Shown in pieces: positions 36,831-60,792 of a stretch of 64,000 nucleotides of DNA. The stretch comes from Candidatus Schekmanbacteria bacterium RIFCSPLOWO2_02_FULL_38_14. Lineage in GTDB: Bacteria; Schekmanbacteria; GWA2-38-11. Every line of letters begins with the position of its first letter. The stretch's first letter is position 1. The notes below the pieces were generated by a model, which was given only the letters and a program-made list of their open reading frames with translations, was not told where the DNA came from and searched no databases. The position numbers were made by a program, and so were the translations under genes. Location: assembly GCA_001790855.1 (NCBI GenBank), contig MGDH01000038.1, positions 31,133 to 95,132 on the forward strand. The letters are read 5' to 3'.

Positions 36831-37050
36831 TGTAGAAACAGGTCTTTAGAGGTTGACCGAGAATGTCATTGCGAGGAGCAAGATTCCTTCGCCTGTCATT
36901 GCGAGCGATAGCGAAGCAATCTCATTGGCTCGGAACAGGCTCCGCAATCTCAGAATCAATTTGTAAATAAAGGGATTGCCACGCTCCCTTTGGTCGCTCG
37001 CAATGACAGACACGGAATTCTCGGTCAGCCTGTAAAGGTCTGTTTCTACA
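36831..37050. repeat. 220-base TIR element containing TCATTGCGAG cores
   Basis: Ends TGTAGAAACAGGTCTTTAGA and, inverted, AGGTCTGTTTCTACA; inside these GACCGAGAAT and ATTCTCGGTC also pair, then several TCATTGCGAG and CTCGCAATGA units. About 46 terminal bases are inverted, interrupted by one 11-base insertion near the right end. No coding capacity. It abuts the pyrD stop by 31 bases. MITE-like in shape. Confidence 0.85.
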
Positions 37051-46807: not shown

Positions 46808-47515
46808 TCAGATAGGGAGGTAATTCATTACATTCACAACCATTCCATCCTTTATTACAACCTTTTTATTTGCGTATTGTATATTATTCGGGTTGTGAGT
46901 TACCATAACAATGGTTTGCCCTTCTCTGTTTATATCTGCAAAAAGGTCCATAATCTCTTTCCCTGTTTTTGTGTCGAGGTTTCCTGTAGGTTCATCAGCA
47001 AGAACTATTGGGGGTTTGTTTACTATCGCCCTTGCAATTGCAACCCTTTCCTGTTCTCCTCCTGAAAGCTGGTCAGGGAGTCTGCTCATCTTTTTTCCAA
47101 GCCCGACTTTTTCAACCACTACAACGGCACGCTCTTTTTTTTCTTTTTTCTTAAGCTCAGTAACTGCCAACGGAAGCATTACATTTTCAAGAACTGTAAG
47201 ATAAGGAACCAGATTAAAGGATTGAAACACAAAACCCAAATATTCACTTCTATAAGTTGCAATCTGTTCATTGGTGAGGCTGTAGATGTCTATTTCATCA
47301 ACTATAATTTTGCCTTCTGATGGACGGTTTAATCCTCCAAGAACTGAAAGAAGAGTGCTTTTTCCTGCTCCCGATTCTCCCATTATACACAAAAAATCAC
47401 CATCACCTATATCAAAGTTTACATCCTGCAGGGCATGAACAGTTTCTACACCGCTGTGGTAACTTTTATAGAGTTTTTTTATTTCAACCAAACACATATT
47501 TTTAGTTTTATCCAT
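46808..47515 (-). CDS. ABC transporter ATPase, MacB/LolD type
   Basis: A 235-residue ATP-binding subunit. Walker [13 protein letters not shown]-loop [10 protein letters not shown], signature [15 protein letters not shown], Walker [13 protein letters not shown]. MacB/LolD-type ATPases power FtsX-like permeases that move lipoproteins or envelope solutes by mechanotransmission. Its permease partner lies directly upstream. Last gene of the metal-handling run. Confidence 0.93.
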
Positions 47516-47545: not shown

Positions 47546-48799
47546 TTACAATGCCCTCAGCGCCTCAGACGGGTCCATGTTTGCTGCCCTTCTGGCAGGA
47601 TAAAGACTTGCCAGCATTCCGATAAAAACAGAAAGCAAAACTGAACCTAAAGCGATTAAGTAGTTAAAACTGACACCTGCTTCTATTCCTGGAAACATTC
47701 TTGATGAAATAAGGGTTGAAACTCCAACACCAATAACATAACCAAGGATACCAGCGAGTGAGCTTACTATGAATGCCTCAAGCAGAATTACTTTCATTAT
47801 ATGGCTCTGGCGGTAACCTATTGCCCTAAAGATGCCGATTTCCCGCGTTCTTTCATTTACTGAACCCATCATTGTAACAAACACCACCAAAGAACCTATG
47901 AAAACCACAACAATTGATATTCCTAAGGAAAAGGTCTTGAACTGATTCAGTGTCTCTATTCTTCCCTGTACAACCTGCTTAAGCGCTGTAACTTTTGCAT
48001 TGGGGAGTTTTTCTGATATCTGCGAAACCATATCTTCAATTGGACAATCCTTGCAGTAAGCGCTTATTTCAATCATTGAAAGCTTTCCTTCTTTATTCAG
48101 TATTTTCTGGGAAAGAGGCAGGTTTAAAAAAATCAGATGGTCATCCTGAGAACCGGTTTCCTCAAGAATGACCGTAACCCTCAGAAGGGTGTTGTTAGCA
48201 GTAATTTCATCTCCAACTTTTAATCCAAGCTTTTTTGCAGCTTCGTATCCTGCTGCAACATCATTTTTTCTTTTAAAATCTATGATGTGAATTTCAGATT
48301 TTTCAGGTGAGGTTGCTGGCTTTGTTTCAGTATTTTCCATTCCTTCCATATTATGATGTTCACCCTGTGGTGAGTAACCAGCTTTTTTCCACCATTTTTT
48401 CAGTCTCAGTTCTTTTTCAAAATCAACTCCAACAAGCATTACTTTCAAACCATTAATTTCTCCGCTTCCTATTACCTTTGGGGCAAGGATGCTGAGGTTT
48501 TTACGGTTTTTTATTCCATTAATCTTTTCTATGTCCTCTATGTTGAGTTCTTTTGTTTCAAAAGTCATCCCACCAAGAGATACCCCGCCATAAGACAGGG
48601 AAAGTCCGTCGGATTTTGGAGTTACAATAATGTTTGCTCCGTATTCATCAAGTTTTTTTCCTAAATCCTCGCTCATTTTGGACGTTATGGACACAAGGGT
48701 GACGATAGTTGTTATTCCTATTAAAAGACCAATAGTGAGGAAAATCATTTTCCCCTTTCTTCGCTTCAGATTATTTATTGCTATGTCAGAGAGTTTCAT
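47546..48799 (-). CDS. MacB/FtsX-type ABC permease
   Basis: A 417-residue permease with one N-terminal TM (KGKMIFLTIGLLIGITTIVTL), a periplasmic MacB_PCD domain (about 45-270) and three C-terminal TM helices of the FtsX fold (FSLGISIVVVFIGSLVVFV onward; NERTREIGIFRAIGYR). The periplasmic loop contains an unusual His/Met-containing stretch (GEHHNMEGMENTETKP) and a CKDC pair, suggestive of metal. It overlaps the HMA gene upstream by one base and matches the FtsX-type permeases of P19-like iron uptake loci. Confidence 0.9.
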   Translation of the reverse strand: MKLSDIAINNLKRRKGKMIFLTIGLLIGITTIVTLVSITSKMSEDLGKKLDEYGANIIVTPKSDGLSLSYGGVSLGGMTFETKELNIEDIEKINGIKNRKNLSILAPKVIGSGEINGLKVMLVGVDFEKELRLKKWWKKAGYSPQGEHHNMEGMENTETKPATSPEKSEIHIIDFKRKNDVAAGYEAAKKLGLKVGDEITANNTLLRVTVILEETGSQDDHLIFLNLPLSQKILNKEGKLSMIEISAYCKDCPIEDMVSQISEKLPNAKVTALKQVVQGRIETLNQFKTFSLGISIVVVFIGSLVVFVTMMGSVNERTREIGIFRAIGYRQSHIMKVILLEAFIVSSLAGILGYVIGVGVSTLISSRMFPGIEAGVSFNYLIALGSVLLSVFIGMLASLYPARRAANMDPSEALRAL

Positions 48800-49197
48800 T
48801 AATTCTTTTTCCCTTTTTTCACAACGAGAATAGTTCCCTTATATCCTCCGGTTCCAATTTTTGATATGCTCTTCTCAAAAGTCTCCGGAGAGACCTTTTT
48901 TGAGTCAAAGGTAATAATTGTTCTTTCAGTTGACAATTCTACATCAGCTTTTATGACACCCGGTATTTTTTCCAGCGCAGACTTTATCCTCGGAGGACAG
49001 GCAGGGCAGAAAAGCCCGTCCACTCTTAGAGTGGCGTGGCTGAAACCATCAAGATTAGCCTTGAAAAATCTATCCCTGAAAGCAAATGCTGAAACTCCTA
49101 ATAAAAGGAGTAAAACCAGAAGAATCTTAGCTCCCCTTTTTCTTTTTCTTCTGTGAAACCCGAGTACTCTTTCTCTTTTATCCGGATATATGCTCAT
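48799..49197 (-). CDS. Membrane-anchored HMA (heavy-metal-associated) protein
   Basis: A 132-residue protein: basic N-terminus, one TM (AKILLVLLLLLGVSAFAF), then an extracytoplasmic HMA domain with the metal motif DGLFCPACPPRI. CPAC replaces the common CxxC of copper chaperones (MTCGSC). Its end overlaps the ABC permease start, so it likely delivers or senses metal for that transporter. Confidence 0.85.
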   Translation of the reverse strand: MSIYPDKRERVLGFHRRKRKRGAKILLVLLLLLGVSAFAFRDRFFKANLDGFSHATLRVDGLFCPACPPRIKSALEKIPGVIKADVELSTERTIITFDSKKVSPETFEKSISKIGTGGYKGTILVVKKGKKN

Positions 49198-49334: not shown

Positions 49335-49787
49335 TCACTGGCTAAAATAAAACTCGCCCTCAAGGATATCGCTCTTATTTATTATTACCTTATTACCCTC
49401 TATCTTGCGGTTAAGAGGTGCAGGATTGCATCCTCCTTTTACCTCGTTAACCTTGCTGGAAGGGAATTTCTGTCCGCATCTTCTGCACACCATCTGGTCT
49501 CCTTCCTGATAGTATCCCTGTTTGTGCTTAAAGCAGACATCGCAGGCATCAAAGGCAGCCCTTATAACACCGTCAGAACTTTTTAAAATAAAATATTTTA
49601 TCTTAACTCCATTGCTTTCATAGGCATAAAACTTAGCCTTTCCGTCTTTAAAATCTGAAACCGGGTAGCTGATTACATCAGATTTACCGACAGTCTCTTT
49701 GCTCTCTTTTTTTTGAGCACTGATTGCTGATAATGGTATTAGGATAAGAAATAAAATACCCATAACAACTGATACAGACTTTTTCAA
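49335..49787 (-). CDS. DUF2318 secreted Fe-S/metal-binding protein
   Basis: A 150-residue secreted protein with signal peptide (VSVVMGILFLILIPLSAISA). The DUF2318 core YFILKSSDGVIRAAFDACDVC, VCRRCGQKF and VKGGCNPAPL provides at least five Cys for a cluster or metal. In P19-type iron uptake loci (e.g. Campylobacter) DUF2318 and FtsX/MacB ABC genes are adjacent, as here. The spacer 49198-49334 holds a CCTAAATACTAA-type low-complexity repeat only. Confidence 0.88.
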   Translation of the reverse strand: MKKSVSVVMGILFLILIPLSAISAQKKESKETVGKSDVISYPVSDFKDGKAKFYAYESNGVKIKYFILKSSDGVIRAAFDACDVCFKHKQGYYQEGDQMVCRRCGQKFPSSKVNEVKGGCNPAPLNRKIEGNKVIINKSDILEGEFYFSQ

Positions 49788-49823: not shown

Positions 49824-50000
49824 TGTAGAAACAGAGCGTTCATTACGACAAAGCCTTTGGGTCTGACTGAGAACTCCATTCCTGTCATTGCGAGCGACTT
49901 AAAAGAGCGTGGCAACCTCTTTATTTACATGACTTTTTTGAGATTGCTTCGTCGCTATCGCTCCTCGCAATGACATTCTCGGCTACTCGTTTCAATCCTT
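49824..50000. repeat. TGTAGAAACAG element, decayed copy
   Basis: Left end TGTAGAAACAGAGCG and inner TCATTGCGAGCGAC...GAGATTGCTTCGTCGCTATC...CTCGCAATGACATTCTCGG match the 36831 element; the right TIR has decayed (CTACTCGTTTCA). It fills the DUF2318-HMA spacer. Confidence 0.7.
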
Positions 50001-50036: not shown

Positions 50037-50990
50037 TTATCCCCGTTTTGAACAACACCCGCCTCCACTGCCACATCCTCCTGAGGCTGTATTGCTGCTA
50101 TCAACAGCTTTTAAGATTTCATCGCTGTAAATCCTGACTTCAGCTTGATCATAAAGCCCGGAAATCCACTGCTGGTAGAGAAAGCCTTTCTTTGATTCAG
50201 GTGTTCTTGGAGGAAAGACCTTTGCTTCAAGATACTTGTTGACTTTTAGGCCCTTTCTTATTTCTTCTTTAAAACCATTTATATCAAGTCCCTGAGCCCG
50301 AAGGTTTTCTTTCAGGGTTTTGTCGTCAAGCTTATAGTTGGTTTTAATTTTGTCTATCTCAGCATTTATCTCCGGGTCAGTCACAGAAAAATTTTCTTTA
50401 CCTATTTCATTCTGTATGATGGCTTCATCTATCATTGAATCTGCAACCTCTGCAATTATCTGCTCTCTTTGCCTCATTGTAGGATAATAGTCTTTGCCCA
50501 CTTTTTTGAAATTCTTAAGCTGTTTTCCAAGAACTGTTTCAAAATCTTTATTGGATATTTCCTTTCCATTTATGCTCATTGCAAATAGCTTTGCCTTTTC
50601 AATCCGTTCTTTTTCTTCTTTCAGAAGCTCATTGCTGTTTTTAATATTTGCAAGAGTTCCCTTGTATTTCCCAAGCTTGTTAATGGCATTAACAAGTAAT
50701 GAGGCAGAGGTTATTTCAGGGTCAAAAAGAACAGTGGCTTTCTGTTTTGCAAGGCTTACCTTTGTTGAATTCACTCCTTTAACTTTCATTAGAGCATTCT
50801 CAATCTTTTCAACACAGCTTCCGCAGGTCATTCCTGAGATTTTTAGCTCTGCCTGGCTGTTGTTGCCTATATTTTTGTAAAAATTACTTCTCTCCTCTTC
50901 TTTCTTGTCATTAATCAATCCTGAGGCATAAAGTCCGAAAAAAACAATAACCCCGGTTAAAAATAATGTTATATATATTTTTTTCTTCAT
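50037..50990 (-). CDS. Periplasmic HMA-SurA_N fusion with Cys/Gly C-terminal tail
   Basis: A 317-residue secreted protein from the ATG at 50990 (SD AGGAAGGG): signal/TM about 5-24, an HMA domain with GMTCGSCV (C56, C59), then a SurA_N-like chaperone segment (AMSINGKEISNKDFETVLGK to about residue 270), and a tail GGCGSGGGCCSKRG at residues 304-317. I know of no named family with this order. The ATGA overlap with the upstream radical SAM gene implies coupled translation. Likely a metal-binding periplasmic folding factor; the tail could be a metal ligand or a modification substrate. Both are inference. Confidence 0.8.
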   Translation of the reverse strand: MKKKIYITLFLTGVIVFFGLYASGLINDKKEEERSNFYKNIGNNSQAELKISGMTCGSCVEKIENALMKVKGVNSTKVSLAKQKATVLFDPEITSASLLVNAINKLGKYKGTLANIKNSNELLKEEKERIEKAKLFAMSINGKEISNKDFETVLGKQLKNFKKVGKDYYPTMRQREQIIAEVADSMIDEAIIQNEIGKENFSVTDPEINAEIDKIKTNYKLDDKTLKENLRAQGLDINGFKEEIRKGLKVNKYLEAKVFPPRTPESKKGFLYQQWISGLYDQAEVRIYSDEILKAVDSSNTASGGCGSGGGCCSKRG

Positions 50991-52045
50991 AAAATTAACC
51001 CTTCCTGATTTTTTAAAATACACCAATCCAACCCGTCCTCTAAGTGTTCCCTATTTTTCCTCATTTTTGCAAATAATTCTGACCCTAAAATATCCTTTAA
51101 GCTTTTATCCCTTATATTTCCTCCCGGCAGCCTTACCATTGGGCATGGTTCAACGCCACCTTGAGAATTTATATGCAGCAATCCCCTGCCGGCGCCAAGG
51201 CATCCTCCAGCCATCTCTTCCCAGTGAGACTGGTTAACCAAGGCGAAATCTTCCCTCTCATTATACTTATCAACTACCTCTTTGAGAAATAGTTTTTCAG
51301 CCCTGTCACAGGAAAAGGTATCAGGTACATTATTATCCTTATGGTTATAATCTAAATATATTCCAACTTTGCACCCTGCCTCTATCATTCCATCAATGAA
51401 CTCTTCCTGGGTTACAGCAGAAATGTTCCTCTTTGTTACGGTCGTAGAAAAACCAAACTGGATATTCCTTTTCCTGGCTGATTCCATTGCCAATATAATC
51501 TTCTCATATGTTCCCTTACCTCTCCATGTATCAGTTTCCCTTTTAAACCCTTCAATACTGAAAAGAGGAAATATTGTTCTGCATTTTTCTAAGCGATCTG
51601 CCACTGCCTGCGTAAAAAGAGTTCCGTTAGTAAATATCCAGCTAACCACATCCCTGTGGCAGGTTAAAACATCAAGGAGCCCTTCTCTAAAAAAAGGTTC
51701 TCCGCCGCTAATCAAAAAGAGAAATATCCCTAAATCTTTTGCCTCATTAATCACTCTATCTATCTCTTCCAAAGAGAGTTCACCATCTTTCAGATATCCC
51801 TTTGCATAACAGCCTATGCAGTCGAGGTTGCATCTCATTGATGGGCTAATTATAAGAACCTTTGGAACAACAATTCCCTCGTCCCTCATCTTCTGGCTTA
51901 TCTCTTTAGCCCTGGTATAATTTTCAAACAAGCTAAGGATATCTAAGCTTCCATCACCTAAATTCTTGGAAAGAATATCTATAAATTTAGGTAAAAAATT
52001 ACTAATCTCTTTAACTTCATCAAAATTAATTGGGATTGAGGTCAT
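50987..52045 (-). CDS. Radical SAM enzyme with reduced SPASM/twitch domain
   Basis: A 352-residue radical SAM protein. The cluster motif is C72-x3-C76-x2-C79 in MRCNLDCIGCYAKG, with FLISGGEPFFREG as the SAM-binding motif. The C-terminal third has Cys in MAGGCLGAGRG, GGVEPCPM and LDWCIL, fewer than a full SPASM. Such enzymes modify peptides or make cofactors. It overlaps the HMA-SurA gene by four bases (ATGA), so the partner's Cys/Gly tail is a candidate substrate. Assigning a reaction is not possible. Confidence 0.88.
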   Translation of the reverse strand: MTSIPINFDEVKEISNFLPKFIDILSKNLGDGSLDILSLFENYTRAKEISQKMRDEGIVVPKVLIISPSMRCNLDCIGCYAKGYLKDGELSLEEIDRVINEAKDLGIFLFLISGGEPFFREGLLDVLTCHRDVVSWIFTNGTLFTQAVADRLEKCRTIFPLFSIEGFKRETDTWRGKGTYEKIILAMESARKRNIQFGFSTTVTKRNISAVTQEEFIDGMIEAGCKVGIYLDYNHKDNNVPDTFSCDRAEKLFLKEVVDKYNEREDFALVNQSHWEEMAGGCLGAGRGLLHINSQGGVEPCPMVRLPGGNIRDKSLKDILGSELFAKMRKNREHLEDGLDWCILKNQEGLIL

Positions 52046-52129: not shown

Positions 52130-52533
52130 CTATTTTGCAAACGTCTTAATGTAATTTACCAGATCCCATCTTTCATTTTCAGTTAATTTCTTTTCCCATT
52201 GAGGCATTGGCTGGTTTCCTTTTGAAATTTTATAAAAAATCTCTCCGTCAGTCATCATGCTCATCATGTTATTGTTATTGAAGTTTGATGGTTTTACTGT
52301 TAGTTCATCTGCCATTGAACCTTTACCGTCTCCGGTTTCCACATGGCAGTCAATGCATTTTTTTTATAAAGTTCTTTGCCACGACTTATGGAATTTTCAT
52401 CTGTACTTAGAGAATTATTTACCCTTTTGTTTTCTTCTGGAACTTTCCAGTTCGTCATTCCGTGACCCCAAATATAAAAAGAAAATATAAATAGGACTGC
52501 TATTATTACTAAAAGTTTTGATAGGAATTTCAC
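52130..52533 (-). pseudogene. Class I cytochrome c, frameshifted at an A8 run
   Basis: Two frames together make one monoheme cytochrome. The 5' part (from 52533) gives the signal/anchor FLSKLLVIIAVLFIFSFYIW and ends SRGKELYKK. At a run of eight A (plus-strand T run 52358-52365) the frame must shift by one base to read CIDCH (heme motif) then VETGDGKGSMADEL and QPMPQWEKK with the axial Met. Without the shift the product lacks heme. This may be a sequencing error, a real mutation or slippage. A cytochrome c in a metal locus could be a redox partner. Confidence 0.75.
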
Positions 52534-52630: not shown

Positions 52631-53191
52631 TCATTTCCTTTCTGCAGTTTCTATTTCCTTGAATGTAAGAATTTTTCCACCATGCTCTTCAATAAATTCC
52701 AGGGCTTTCACTTTCCCTTTAAAAGCAATGACACTTGGTAAACATCTATCATAACATAATACAAATTGGGTTTTTGTCTGGTCAATCATGACCTTTTGTG
52801 AAGAACAGGGAGTAATATCACTCCCAACCACATAAAAGGCTTTTTCAGATTCTACAATCTCTCCTGTGTTAAAATCAGCAACTTTTATTGATAGATCCTT
52901 CTTTGAACTCTGAGCCTCATATTTTAATGCACACTTAATACAGCAAGCCTTTTCATCTTTTCCTTCTTCAAAAGTTACAAGGGTTTTTGTAATTTCATGA
53001 ACATCCCTTCCACATAAAGCGCATTTTTCGGGTTTCTGGTTAGGCAAAAATCCCATTCCAGAGAGCAATAAAACCTGCGATATTAAAAAAATCTGTAAAA
53101 ATGCTTTCTTGAAAATGATTACTCCTTTTAAGCAACTAGATTTTTCCCTCTCCCTTGATGGGAGAGGGTTTGGGTGAGGGTGAAATATCAT
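52631..53191 (-). CDS. NosL-like Cys-rich periplasmic protein
   Basis: Homologous in pattern to NosL/copper-binding lipoproteins: KCALCGRDV, ACCIKCALKYE, FNTGEIVESEKAFYVVGSD and the C-terminal AFKGKVKALEFIEEHGGKIL. The first 26 codons (MIFHPHPNPLPSRERE) come from a GGGAGAGGG-type repeat that is not protein-like. A good SD (AAAAGGAG) lies further in, five bases before ATT (codon for IFKKAFL), so the true start may be the rare ATT near 53116. The signal segment is FLQIFLISQVLLLSGMGF. A role in copper handling fits the neighbours. Confidence 0.72.
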   Translation of the reverse strand: MIFHPHPNPLPSREREKSSCLKGVIIFKKAFLQIFLISQVLLLSGMGFLPNQKPEKCALCGRDVHEITKTLVTFEEGKDEKACCIKCALKYEAQSSKKDLSIKVADFNTGEIVESEKAFYVVGSDITPCSSQKVMIDQTKTQFVLCYDRCLPSVIAFKGKVKALEFIEEHGGKILTFKEIETAERK

Positions 53192-53975: not shown

Positions 53976-54503
53976 TTACTGTCCCATATGCCCGCTATTT
54001 CCCATACCACTCCCTGAACCCATATTACTGCCGCTTCCCATACCATATCCTGAGCTATTTCCGTTTCCTCCCTGGCCCGAACCCATCATACCACCACTAT
54101 GATGGCCATCTGTTCCGCCTGTAGTTGTCATATGGGAATCACTTCCTCCCATTTCAGAGCCACTCATCATATTCTGATCACTATTACCTTGATGGCTTCC
54201 TGTCCCTGTCGCGCTGTCTCCGTGCATATTACTACCGCTTCCCATATTGGAATTTGTGCCCATATGAGAATTGGTGTTAGTAGAATCACTCTCTTGGGAA
54301 GTTCCAACATTTTTTCCCTTCATTGTCTGGGAACCCATTCCGCCTCCAGAACCATTTGTAATACCTTTGTTCATTTTCCCTTTACTGCCCTGTCCACTCT
54401 TCATCCCTGATTTGCTCCCCTTGTGCCCGGCAAAGCTAAAACTTGAAAAGGCAACAAAAACAACAATACTGAAAAAAACAATTACTATCTTTTTAAACTT
54501 CAT
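53976..54503 (-). CDS. Secreted Met/Gly/Ser/His-rich protein, probable copper buffer
   Basis: A 175-residue low-complexity protein. Signal IVIVFFSIVVFVAFSSFSFA, then almost only Gly, Ser, Met, Asn, His and Thr, with many SNMGSGSN, GGMMGSGQ and HMG units. No Cys. Regularly spaced Met and His resemble Met-motif Cu(I)/Ag(I) binders such as CopC/PcoE-type proteins. No fold can be assigned; its place behind CusA supports metal sequestration. Confidence 0.7.
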   Translation of the reverse strand: MKFKKIVIVFFSIVVFVAFSSFSFAGHKGSKSGMKSGQGSKGKMNKGITNGSGGGMGSQTMKGKNVGTSQESDSTNTNSHMGTNSNMGSGSNMHGDSATGTGSHQGNSDQNMMSGSEMGGSDSHMTTTGGTDGHHSGGMMGSGQGGNGNSSGYGMGSGSNMGSGSGMGNSGHMGQ

Positions 54504-55974: not shown

Positions 55975-58900
55975 TTAAGGCTGCACATTCAGATTTGCTT
56001 CCTTTCTCACATAAAAGTACCAGCGCCAAACTTCATAGATGGCAGGATAGACCACCAGTTCCATAATGAACGAAGTAAAAATACCGCCAATCATTGGCGC
56101 AGCAATCCGCTTCATTACATCTGCGCCGGTGCCCGTTGACCACATGATTGGAACCAAGCCCATAAACATCACGGCCACAGTCATGAATTTAGGCCTCAAA
56201 CGCTTCACTGCACCTTCAACAATTGCCTCCCGCAAATGCTCTTTGGTCTTCATCATGCCTTTCTCACGCATAGCATAATATGCAATATCAAGATAAAGAA
56301 GCATGAATACACCGGTTTCTGCATCTACTCCCAAAAGTGCTATCAGCCCGACCCATACTGCAATGCTGGTGTTATAACCGAGGAGATAGAGAAACCAGAT
56401 TGCTCCGACTGCTGAAAACGGAACAGCAAGGAAAATAATCAATGTCTTTGCCGCAGAGCGGGTGTTAAAGTAAAGAAGTAGGATGATGATAAAGAGAGTG
56501 ATCGGAACCACTATCATCAACCTTTCCTCAACCCTCTGCATATATTCATACTGCCCGCTCCAGATAAGCGTATAGCCTGGAGGAAGTTTAACCTTTTCCC
56601 TTACTGCTTTTTTTGCATCAGCCACATAACCGCCAACATCACGCCCTGTAACATCCACATACACATAGCCGCTAAGCCTCCCGTTTTCATCCCTTATCAT
56701 GCCAGGACCTGACAGAAGCTTAATATCAGCAATCTGAGCCATTGGGATCTGCGCACCACCGGTGGTTGGAACCAGGACACGGCTGAGATTGTCAACTGTG
56801 CTTCTGTAGTCACGCAGATAGCGAACATTGACAGAATAACGTTCCCGCCCCTCAATCGTAGTGGTAATATTCTCGCCCCCGACAGCCGACATAACGACGC
56901 TCTCTGCCTGACCAATTGTGAGTCCATAGCGGGCAAGCTCCTCCCGCTTGAAATTGAAGTCAAGGAAGTAGCCCCCTGCTGTGCGCTCTGCAAAAACACT
57001 TGTTGTTCCCTGAACGTCTTTGATAACCATTTCAATATGCTGGCCTATCTCCTGGATTTTATTTAAATCCGAGCCAAGAACCTTAATCCCAACAGGAGTC
57101 CTTATCCCTGTTGTCAGCATATCCACTCTTGCTTTAATAGGCATTGTCCATGCATTGATAACGCCTGGAATCTGCAAGGCTTCGTTTAATCCCCCTGGCC
57201 CATAAATAAGTTCCTGTGTGTTCTTGTGGTCAGGCCAAGCACGGCGAAACATATTTTTTAACCACTCCGGTGCCCAGTCTGAATACCAGCGGGGCATTTT
57301 TGGCCACTGGTCATGAGGCTTAAGAACAACCACTGTCTCCATCATTGAAAACGGGGCTGGATCAGTTGCAGTTTCAGCCCTTCCTGCCTTGCCGAATACC
57401 CTTTCAACTTCCGGGAATGATTTAAGGATTTTATCCTGTACTTGCAGAATCTTCTGGGTCTCTGTTACAGAAATTCCAGGCATAGTGGTTGGCATATAAA
57501 GGAGTACACCCTCATCAAGGGGAGGCATAAACTCTGAACCAAGGCGGGAAAAAATCGGAATGGTAAGTAATATAATAACCACTGCACCGGCAATTGTTGC
57601 CCACTGATGGCGCAGTACAAATTCTACGATTGGATGATATATCCTCATCAGCGGGCGGCTGATAGGATGATTCTCTTCACTGTGAATTTTCCCGACAAGA
57701 ACCGCATTAACAACCCTGCACAGCAGGCGCGGACGGAAGTCAAAATTCTTCATGTGGGTAAAGAGAAGCCGTAGAGCCGGGTCAAGAGTAATTGCAAGCA
57801 CTGCTGCAATTATCATTGAAAAATTCTTTGTAAATGCAAGGGGTTTAAATAGCCGTCCTTCCATCGCCTCGAGTGTAAAAATAGGTATGAATGATACAGC
57901 GATTACAAGAAGTGCAAAGAAGCTCGGACCCCCCACTTCCTTGACCGCACTTATAACAACATCCTTAAAATTTCCAGGTCTTCCTTCCACATCCCAGTGT
58001 TCAAGTTTTTTGTGGGTCTGCTCAACCACAACAATGGCAGCATCAACCATTGCACCGACGGCTATGGCAATGCCCCCAAGGGACATTATGTTGGCCGTAA
58101 TCTTCATCCCGTACATGGGAATAAAGGAAATTATAATTGTAATAGGGATTGTGAGGATAGGAATAATAGCGCTTGGAATATGCCAGAGGAAGATTAAAAT
58201 CACAAGGCTTACAATCGTAAGTTCTTCAATAAGCGTACCCTTAAGTGTCTCAATTGACCTCTCAATCAGTTCTGCCCTATCATAAGTAGTTATAATTTTT
58301 ACACCCTCAGGCAAACTTGGCTCAATCTCGGCAATCCTTGCTTTAACCCGCTCAATCACCTTCAATGCGTTTTCACCAAACCTCATAATCACAATGGCTC
58401 CAACTGTTTCACCTTTTCCATCAAGCTCAGCAATACCCCGGCGGATATCAGGGCCTAAAGTAACCCTGCCGAGATTTTTTACCAGTATGGGCGTTCCTCC
58501 TCCCTCGTTTGTACCGACAACAATATTCTCAATATCAGAAACTGAGCGTATGTAGCCACGTCCCCTGACCATATATTCACGACCTGAAAATTCAACAAGC
58601 CTTCCTCCAACATCATTGTTTCCCTCCCTGATTGCATCGATAACCTTTTCTATTGGAATCTTATACGCCAGGAGCGTGTTGGGATCGAGGTTGACCTGAT
58701 ATTGACGGACAAATCCGCCAATCGGTGCAACCTCAGCCACACCGGGTATGGACTGAAGCTCATATCTAAGATGCCAATCCTGGAGTGAACGGAGTTCTGC
58801 CAGGTTATGTTTTCCAGTTGTATCTACAAGGGCATACTGGAAAACCCAGCCAACTGCCGTTGCATCCTTTGCAAGCTCTACCTGAACACCCTGAGGGAGT

Positions 58901-59256
58901 TTTGGTATGACACTGCTAAGATATTCAAGGGTTCGTGAGCGCGCCCAGTAGATATCTGTTCCATCTTCAAAAATAATATAGACATACGAATAGCCGAAGT
59001 CAGAGAAACCGCGAATATCTTTCACTTTTGGTGCACCAAGCATTGCTCTGATAATCGGGTAGGTAACCTGGTCTTCCATTATGTCAGGGCTTCTGTCCCA
59101 CCTCGAGTAGATTATCACCTGTGTGTCTGAAAGGTCGGGGATTGCATCAAGGGTAATATTCTTCATCGAATAGATTCCGGCAAAAACTGCCATACCTACG
59201 ACGATGAAGACAATGAATTTATTATTTGCGCAAAATTCGATAATTTTATTAATCAT
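55975..59256 (-). CDS. cusA: CusA-type Cu(I)/Ag(I) RND efflux pump
   Basis: Proton-driven inner-membrane RND subunit of 1093 residues (HME family). The proton-relay Asp is D405 in VGAMVDAAIVVVEQ. All three positions of the E. coli CusA Met triad are Met here: M588 (LLYMPTT), M638/639 (FSMMETV), M713 (VDMLTTG), which favours Cu(I)/Ag(I) over divalent metals. The ETATD and DEGVLLYMP motifs are intact. Forms a tripartite pump with the two genes upstream. Confidence 0.95.
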   Translation of the reverse strand: MINKIIEFCANNKFIVFIVVGMAVFAGIYSMKNITLDAIPDLSDTQVIIYSRWDRSPDIMEDQVTYPIIRAMLGAPKVKDIRGFSDFGYSYVYIIFEDGTDIYWARSRTLEYLSSVIPKLPQGVQVELAKDATAVGWVFQYALVDTTGKHNLAELRSLQDWHLRYELQSIPGVAEVAPIGGFVRQYQVNLDPNTLLAYKIPIEKVIDAIREGNNDVGGRLVEFSGREYMVRGRGYIRSVSDIENIVVGTNEGGGTPILVKNLGRVTLGPDIRRGIAELDGKGETVGAIVIMRFGENALKVIERVKARIAEIEPSLPEGVKIITTYDRAELIERSIETLKGTLIEELTIVSLVILIFLWHIPSAIIPILTIPITIIISFIPMYGMKITANIMSLGGIAIAVGAMVDAAIVVVEQTHKKLEHWDVEGRPGNFKDVVISAVKEVGGPSFFALLVIAVSFIPIFTLEAMEGRLFKPLAFTKNFSMIIAAVLAITLDPALRLLFTHMKNFDFRPRLLCRVVNAVLVGKIHSEENHPISRPLMRIYHPIVEFVLRHQWATIAGAVVIILLTIPIFSRLGSEFMPPLDEGVLLYMPTTMPGISVTETQKILQVQDKILKSFPEVERVFGKAGRAETATDPAPFSMMETVVVLKPHDQWPKMPRWYSDWAPEWLKNMFRRAWPDHKNTQELIYGPGGLNEALQIPGVINAWTMPIKARVDMLTTGIRTPVGIKVLGSDLNKIQEIGQHIEMVIKDVQGTTSVFAERTAGGYFLDFNFKREELARYGLTIGQAESVVMSAVGGENITTTIEGRERYSVNVRYLRDYRSTVDNLSRVLVPTTGGAQIPMAQIADIKLLSGPGMIRDENGRLSGYVYVDVTGRDVGGYVADAKKAVREKVKLPPGYTLIWSGQYEYMQRVEERLMIVVPITLFIIILLLYFNTRSAAKTLIIFLAVPFSAVGAIWFLYLLGYNTSIAVWVGLIALLGVDAETGVFMLLYLDIAYYAMREKGMMKTKEHLREAIVEGAVKRLRPKFMTVAVMFMGLVPIMWSTGTGADVMKRIAAPMIGGIFTSFIMELVVYPAIYEVWRWYFYVRKEANLNVQP

Positions 59257-59295: not shown

Positions 59296-60792
59296 TCACA
59301 TTCCCGGCATTGGCGGCATCTTGGTTTGTTCTTGTTTCTGCTTGCCCACTGGAGCACTTGGAATCTTCTGCTCTTCACCAGTTGCTACTTCGCCTGCTTG
59401 CTCTCCTCCGCCATGCCCCATACCTTCCATTCCACCCATTGCAGACTTTAAACGACTTTCTGAGTCGATCAAGAAATTACCGGAAGTTACAATTTTCTCA
59501 CCATCTTTAAGTCCCTCAAGGATAATAAATCGTTTATCCACCTTTGCACCTAAGCTCACCTTGCGTGGCTCAAAAAGACCTTCTTCGCGCGCAACAAAGA
59601 CAATCTGCTCATTTCCTGAATCAAGCACTGCTTCTTCAGGCACGGAAATTTGCTTGCCATAGTTAATCTGGAACCCAACATTTGCATACATATCAGGCTT
59701 TAATTTAAAATCGGGGTTAGAAAATTCCAGGCGTACCTTCAATGTACGGGTAATGTTGTCAAGTTGTGGATAGATATAAGTAACTTTGCCACTAAATATC
59801 TCTCCAGGATAATAAGAGAGCATAATCGTGGCAGTCTGGCCGAGTTTAATCATTGGTATCTCATATTCATATATATCCGCAAGAACCCAGACTCTAGATA
59901 GGTCAGCAATTGTATAAAGTTCACTCTCCGGCATAACTCTCTGGCGCTCAAAGGCGTTACGGGTAAGAACAAAACCGCTGCTTGGCGCATAGAGGGTCAT
60001 TGTTTTGACCGGCTCACCGCGCTTTTCAATCTCTCTTATTTCATCTTCCCGGATATCCCAAAACTCAAGCCTCTTTTTTGTCGACTGTAGGAGTGAATTT
60101 GAACTATTAGCAATCTCAGGAAAGGGACTTTTGCTTAAATACTCTTTTGACTTAAGCGCAAGTAAATATTCCTGCTGTGTTGAAACAAGCTCTGGGCTAT
60201 ATATGCTGATAAGGGGCTGACCTTTCTTGACAAGTTTTCCTGTAAAATCAACATAAACCTTTTCAATCCACCCTTCAATTTTCGGGTTGATTTTTACAAT
60301 TTTTGTCTCATCGTATGTAATCCTGCCAACAGTCCTTATGGTCCGTGTCAATGGCTCAACTGATACAACACCATAGGTTACTCCTATTATTTGCTGTTTT
60401 GTAGAAGTAATCATTGTAGAGCCTTTGGGAGGTGCTTCACCTGTGCCTTCCTCTTCAGCATACACCGGAACAAGCTGCATTCCGCAATCAGGAGCAATTC
60501 CCGGCTTATCTGACTTGTAAACTGGATGCATAGGATCAACCCAGTAGAGGATTTTTTTCTCTTTGCTTTCTTTTTTCCCTTCATCCTCCATTTTCATATC
60601 GCTCATATCCATATCATCTTTTTTAATATCCGTTTTCTTTTGCTCTGCATGATTGCTCTGTTGTTCTGATTTTGCAGAAGCCATCTCTTTGGTTTTATCC
60701 TTGAACATATACCCTGCAAATCCTGCTAAAACTATTAGGAGAATTACCAAAAGCAGTTTTCCTATACCCCATTTTCTGTTTTCATTTTCCAT
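59296..60792 (-). CDS. cusB: CusB-type RND periplasmic adaptor with heavy-metal-binding domain
   Basis: A 498-residue membrane fusion protein: N-terminal anchor LLLVILLIVLAGFAGYMF, a Met/Asp segment (DDMDMSDMKMEDEG), a heavy-metal-binding domain (YWVDPMHPVYKSDKPGIAPD, CGMQLVPVY), lipoyl/hairpin/beta-barrel modules (EGWIEKVYVDFTGKLVKKGQ, YYPGEIFSGKVTYIYPQ) and a Met-rich C-terminus ending MPPMPGM. It accepts metal from chaperones and docks CusA to TolC. SD present; 39 bases to cusA. Confidence 0.94.
   Translation of the reverse strand: MENENRKWGIGKLLLVILLIVLAGFAGYMFKDKTKEMASAKSEQQSNHAEQKKTDIKKDDMDMSDMKMEDEGKKESKEKKILYWVDPMHPVYKSDKPGIAPDCGMQLVPVYAEEEGTGEAPPKGSTMITSTKQQIIGVTYGVVSVEPLTRTIRTVGRITYDETKIVKINPKIEGWIEKVYVDFTGKLVKKGQPLISIYSPELVSTQQEYLLALKSKEYLSKSPFPEIANSSNSLLQSTKKRLEFWDIREDEIREIEKRGEPVKTMTLYAPSSGFVLTRNAFERQRVMPESELYTIADLSRVWVLADIYEYEIPMIKLGQTATIMLSYYPGEIFSGKVTYIYPQLDNITRTLKVRLEFSNPDFKLKPDMYANVGFQINYGKQISVPEEAVLDSGNEQIVFVAREEGLFEPRKVSLGAKVDKRFIILEGLKDGEKIVTSGNFLIDSESRLKSAMGGMEGMGHGGGEQAGEVATGEEQKIPSAPVGKQKQEQTKMPPMPGM

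Follow-up and report, generated by a model that had tools for sequence, protein, structure and literature searches.

An HMA–SurA protein with a conserved Cys/Gly tail, a candidate envelope metallochaperone of Candidatus Schekmanbacteria

A 2.68-Mb genome of Candidatus Schekmanbacteria contains, within the 64,000-nucleotide stretch of DNA analysed here (the window), a gene for a 317-aa protein (50037..50990, minus strand) that joins an HMA domain to a SurA core stripped of its parvulin domain and ends in a Cys/Gly tail. The explanation we favour, to which we give an even chance of being right, is that this protein serves as a metallochaperone in the envelope, as part of a copper/heavy-metal island, and that the adjoining radical-SAM gene is only loosely linked to it; the gene would be this lineage's own member of a large family with no named function, and not a dedicated partner that modifies the tail. 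If this is true, a bacterial envelope metallochaperone has been made from a folding chaperone, and the three-part plan of eukaryotic CCS has been reached with a different docking domain. The protein is also an addition to the poorly understood FtrD–FtsX–LolD metal clusters.

The upstream neighbour encodes a short radical-SAM/twitch protein of 352 aa (50987..52045, minus strand). The coordinates bear out an earlier note's observation that the two genes overlap by ATGA (50987..50990, minus strand), the ATG of the HMA–SurA gene occupying 50990-50988 and the TGA stop of the SAM gene 50989-50987. A longer ORF beginning with TTG and reaching to 51026 is unnecessary for the HMA–SurA gene, and the ATG at 50990 was taken as the start. 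Promoter and terminator scans gave signals no better than shuffle level. Four Schekmanbacteria genomes were compared, and all statements of co-occurrence below rest on them: G000, which carries the window; G001, of a sister genus; G002, of the next family; and G003. The closest relative among the genomes compared is the MAG Candidatus Schekmanbacteria GWA2_38_11 (L062), whose locus proteins are identical to those of G001.

Pfam and sequence both agree with the order of parts first read from this gene, namely signal, HMA domain with CxxC, SurA_N domain and Cys/Gly tail. A hydrophobic N-terminus (about residues 6-25) is followed by the HMA domain (residues 49-108; 50667..50846, minus strand), which carries the motif GMTCGSC and scores 64 bits against PF00403, whose cut-off is 24.8; the CGSC codons at 50814-50825 (minus strand) specify a putative metal site. 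The SurA N-terminal chaperone domain (residues 137-253; 50232..50582, minus strand) scores 58 bits against PF13624 (SurA_N_3; cut-off 27.2), and both domains lie above their Pfam cut-offs in all three tailed proteins (G000, G001 and G002). In the predicted model both domains are folded, with block pLDDT mostly 75-93. Compared with the PDB, the model matched HMA structures (best Z 14-16; about 0.8-1.2 Å over the HMA domain), the VIA-align rows covering mostly the HMA portion, while Foldseek returned the SurA core 8pzv_F (TM 0.59 by target length, 177 columns) as well as many HMA domains. Alignment with full-length SurA/PpiC proteins revealed a clean gap across the entire parvulin domain, and no parvulin/rotamase Pfam match was obtained in the tailed proteins of G000, G001 and G002. 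The final helix and strand of the SurA fold, LYQQWISGLYDQAEVRIY (residues 265-287; 50130..50198, minus strand), are kept in the alignment with ordinary SurA/PpiC proteins and, in alignment and model, are fused directly to the N domain. The protein thus resembles SurA, PpiD and PrsA in its N-terminal domain and in the C-terminal helix and strand of the SurA core, but differs from them in lacking parvulin and in having an added HMA domain and Cys tail.

The tail itself, GGCGSGGGCCSKRG (residues 304-317; 50040..50081, minus strand), is predicted to be disordered, with a pLDDT of about 25 in the model. The homologous tails read RCGGSCCS in G001 and GCGGSCCSKS in G002. These two proteins share 59 and 39% identity with that of the window, yet all three keep the Cys core C-GG-CCS unchanged. 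No other ORF end carries a similar tail among 714 distinct ORFs from 860 kb of DNA, five matches being copies of the same three proteins. Since the core is invariant in diverged proteins and no other such ORF end was found, the tail is, to judge by these alignments, very probably under selection. Such predicted disorder fits a flexible tail whose role is metal binding or thiol chemistry. One extra DNA-pattern match to the tail in G001 was dismissed, being out of frame and not at a gene end.

The earlier note knew of no described system with this domain order, and the searches agree: in some 780 further genomes, none was found beyond Schekmanbacteria. A full-length search of 386 genomes across families and 396 of one large phylum returned the three Schekmanbacteria alone, and no further HMA–SurA protein was found around G150, G216 or G131, a weak scope of two to three genomes each. 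A search of named genomes for the SurA–tail part of the protein, made with weak patterns, found only the sister Schekmanbacteria MAG, and the region was absent from the viral contigs searched. SurA matches in G188 and G353 (L087 and L088) were set aside as ordinary PPIase-type proteins without HMA domain or tail. A literature search by title and abstract found nothing relevant on Schekmanbacteria together with radical SAM, nor on HMA–SurA fusions.

The ATGA overlap is not conserved in L003 or L062. In G001, 243 noncoding bp separate the SAM and HMA–SurA genes, and in G002 the tailed gene directly follows a cytochrome c gene while the SAM homologue (51% identical) lies on a separate contig; the overlap is therefore a private detail of G000. 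Translation of the enzyme together with the tail had been read as a sign that the one acts on the other, and this argument falls away, the overlap occurring in one genome and the tail being kept in G002, where the genes are unlinked. Within the phylum the SAM gene nevertheless seems to belong to the same locus. In G003 neither the tailed gene nor FtrD was found, and the SAM homologue (L096 6305-7134), which lies beside cytochrome c in a region sharing seven genes in synteny with the G002 HMA–SurA cluster, is broken: its frame changes near codon 104, it starts about 50 residues late and its third auxiliary Cys is missing. Taken singly, such a defect could come from misassembly, but all of them together suggest that the gene has decayed. 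The short SAM gene is thus intact wherever the tailed protein occurs (three genomes) and decayed in the single genome that lacks it, a pattern that hints at a real link, although four genomes are weak evidence. Among these four, no tail was found in a genome lacking the SAM gene, the case that the earlier note had named as telling against the pairing.

The short SAM protein matches Pfam Radical_SAM with 64 bits and SPASM/twitch with 31 bits. Its CxxxCxxC cluster motif (C72/C76/C79; 51809..51832, minus strand) and the auxiliary-cluster cysteines C282, C301 and C342 of its twitch region (51020..51202, minus strand) are kept in 30 of 30 homologues; we read the three auxiliary cysteines as a probable twitch-like, single-cluster arrangement. 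The short form (343-352 aa) was found in Schekmanbacteria alone, and a long form of about 450-500 aa, with identity no higher than 39%, occurs in many other genomes. The closest solved folds to the model are SuiB, SkfB and anSME, followed by viperin and MoaA. With the first three the enzyme has in common the fold of the SAM core and three conserved cysteines in a twitch-like region, but it has no RRE, is about 18-23% identical to them by structural alignment and reaches no family cut-off among the matches listed. RiPP maturases carry an RRE at the N-terminal position. In the SAM model the roughly 60 residues before the core form two helices of modest confidence with no RRE, and the short SAM protein has no RRE/PqqD match in Pfam. 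None of the 25 NCBIfam matches listed reaches its cut-off, all falling far below; the best scores among them belong to AhbD, a pseudo-SAM family and NirJ.

These features bear on the idea that, ahead of export, the enzyme acts on the Cys/Gly tail in the cytosol, giving a thioether, a formylglycine-like or a similar modification, or assists in making a metal site there. The nearest folds are modifiers of peptides or proteins, and SkfB, a twitch sactisynthase, makes thioethers with a single auxiliary cluster (PMC6231123), a precedent that renders thioether chemistry compatible with the arrangement seen here. In addition, G000 has the two genes side by side and G001 has them at a distance of 243 bp; every tailed genome of the three carries an intact short SAM gene, and tail-less G003 a decayed one; and the G002 copy neighbours a secreted protein of 102 aa whose end is rich in Cys. 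Against this, the model has no RRE and none of the matches listed meets a peptide-maturase cut-off; MoaA and viperin also match the fold; G002 keeps the tail without SAM adjacency; and long SAM homologues are without tailed neighbours. The supposed substrate, moreover, consists of a signal/anchor and two globular domains, not a leader and core peptide, and metal binding needs no more than a tail of free cysteines. Modification of the tail is possible but not favoured, and we consider this explanation decidedly improbable; the narrower proposal that a SAM-installed cross-link or other change of the tail gives an exported SurA-type folding factor a metal site of its own is more doubtful still. 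The suggestion from which the analysis began, peptide modification or a metal site, stands in so far as the conserved cysteines of the tail make up a site such as would be expected to bind metal, while joint translation as a sign that the SAM enzyme acts on it found no support. The proposed neighbourhood check was similarly divided: no tailed genome is without an intact SAM gene, but the tail is kept without SAM adjacency in G002, and 17 neighbourhoods of long SAM homologues contained no HMA protein, no SurA relative and no gene with a Gly/Ser-rich Cys tail.

Two secreted proteins that carry a KPGSVGW motif and have no Pfam match (L094 6610-6918 and 8183-8647) stand on either side of the SAM gene in G002. 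One of the two, of 102 aa, has the Cys-rich end SCSCTSKQGSGSNETSGPCKAN and no homologue in the other three Schekmanbacteria genomes at E ≤ 0.01.

The SAM gene might instead serve cytochrome c, a haem-like compound or another small molecule, in which case it would adjoin the HMA–SurA gene by accident. It stands beside a cytochrome gene in three of the four genomes (G000, G001 and G003) and beside HMA–SurA in two, and the haem enzymes AhbD and NirJ are among its best NCBIfam scores listed. Those scores, however, are 76-92 bits against cut-offs of at least 500 and amount to superfamily kinship alone, the cytochrome of G002 has no SAM neighbour, and that of the window (52130..52533, minus strand) is frameshifted by one base in an A-run just before its CxxCH haem site. 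The frameshift is either an assembly error or a recent loss; in the sister genome the gene is intact (L062 3942-4346; Pfam Cytochrome_CBB3). We judge a cytochrome or small-molecule role of the SAM gene unlikely.

Returning to the metallochaperone, its setting is rich in metal-related genes. Downstream lie, all on the minus strand, an FtrD-like (DUF2318) protein (49335..49787; PF10080, 115 bits), a single-HMA membrane-anchored protein with the motif GLFCPAC (48799..49197; PF00403, 44 bits), an FtsX/MacB-type permease (47546..48799; PF02687, 90 bits) and a LolD/MacB-type ABC ATPase (46808..47515; PF00005, 117 bits). The order FtrD–HMA–FtsX is common to G000, G001 and G002; LolD follows it in both G000 and G002, and the contig of G001 stops near the permease, before LolD would be reached. 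An FtrD–HMA–FtsX–LolD cluster and a cytochrome c stay with the tailed protein. FtrD–FtsX–LolD sets also occur in other phyla (L138, L139, L143 and L144), and no HMA–SurA or short SAM gene was seen at the FtrD-bearing loci L137-L144 of other genomes. Upstream, again on the minus strand, are a NosL-like protein of a copper chaperone family (52631..53191; PF05573, 32 bits), a YtkA-like secreted protein with a weak, below-cut-off match to PF13115 (54857..55375; 21.5 bits), a CusA/CzcA heavy-metal RND efflux pump (55975..59256; TIGR00914, 1077 bits, above cut-off) and a CusB-type adaptor with a heavy-metal-binding domain (59296..60792; PF16576 and PF19335; PRK09783, 193 bits, below cut-off), together with genes for an LTXXQ protein, a DUF2231 protein and a TolC-type protein. 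A YtkA-like homologue, 50% identical, adjoins the cytochrome and HMA–SurA genes in G002 (L093 13072-13551). Because CusA exceeds its family cut-off and the upstream genes are of copper type, the metal of the island is suggested to be copper or some other soft metal. HMA domains are able to bind Hg, Zn and Cd as well.

A secreted, low-complexity protein rich in Met, Gly, His and Ser (53976-54503, minus strand) is also present and is conserved in the sister genome (L062 2093-2608). It is perhaps an extracytoplasmic binder of copper or silver.

The conserved FtrD/DUF2318, FtsX and LolD genes also bring in an iron or redox role, in which CGSC and the tail would form a thiol relay with FtrD and FtsX–LolD that maintains iron in the reduced state or the transporter in an active one. 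Such a role is possible because the nearest characterised relative, Campylobacter fetABCD (DUF2318, ABC permease, ATPase), acts in iron uptake; fetA-D are required for iron-limited growth, and FetE/F are thioredoxin-like (PMC10783030). The window shares with fetMP-fetABCDEF the DUF2318 protein, the ABC permease and the ABC ATPase, but among the window genes scanned there is no FTR1/FetM, no P19/FetP and no thioredoxin, the place of the thioredoxins being taken by two HMA proteins and copper-type neighbours. We think an iron or redox accessory role rather unlikely.

For the favoured metallochaperone, what we infer of location, metal, docking and transfer is as follows. The N-terminus would anchor or export the protein, and the HMA domain, through GMTCGSC, would capture an ion of a soft metal, Cu(I) being the likeliest. 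The parvulin-less SurA core, consisting of N-domain and C-terminal helix, may dock a partner or client protein, and the disordered tail with its three conserved cysteines could accept the metal or work as a dithiol and then pass the metal on. The presumed constant partners are FtrD (DUF2318), the second HMA protein and the FtsX–LolD transporter.

In its proposed working plan the protein would resemble eukaryotic CCS, which has an N-terminal HMA domain with MxCxxC, a middle docking domain and a flexible C-terminal CXC tail (PMC6383938). An HMA domain, a middle docking domain and a flexible Cys tail are the shared elements, docking in the HMA–SurA protein being a putative function. The middle domain, however, is SOD-like in CCS and SurA-like here, SurA_N being assigned by Pfam and no SOD-like domain II being present in the HMA–SurA protein; the tail cysteines, though conserved in a segment of low pLDDT, are spaced C-GG-CC and not CXC; and the HMA–SurA protein has in addition an N-terminal signal/anchor. 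Since the middle domains come from different families, the likeness is one of working plan and not of whole-protein homology.

A dispersed repeat, GTCATTGCGAGCGA, was also observed in the window, with five matches at two or fewer mismatches against 0.16 expected. Copies lie at 49884-49897 and 36895-37007, among others; two of them are inverted relative to each other at a distance of about 100 bp, and one lies between the HMA–SurA and FtrD genes.
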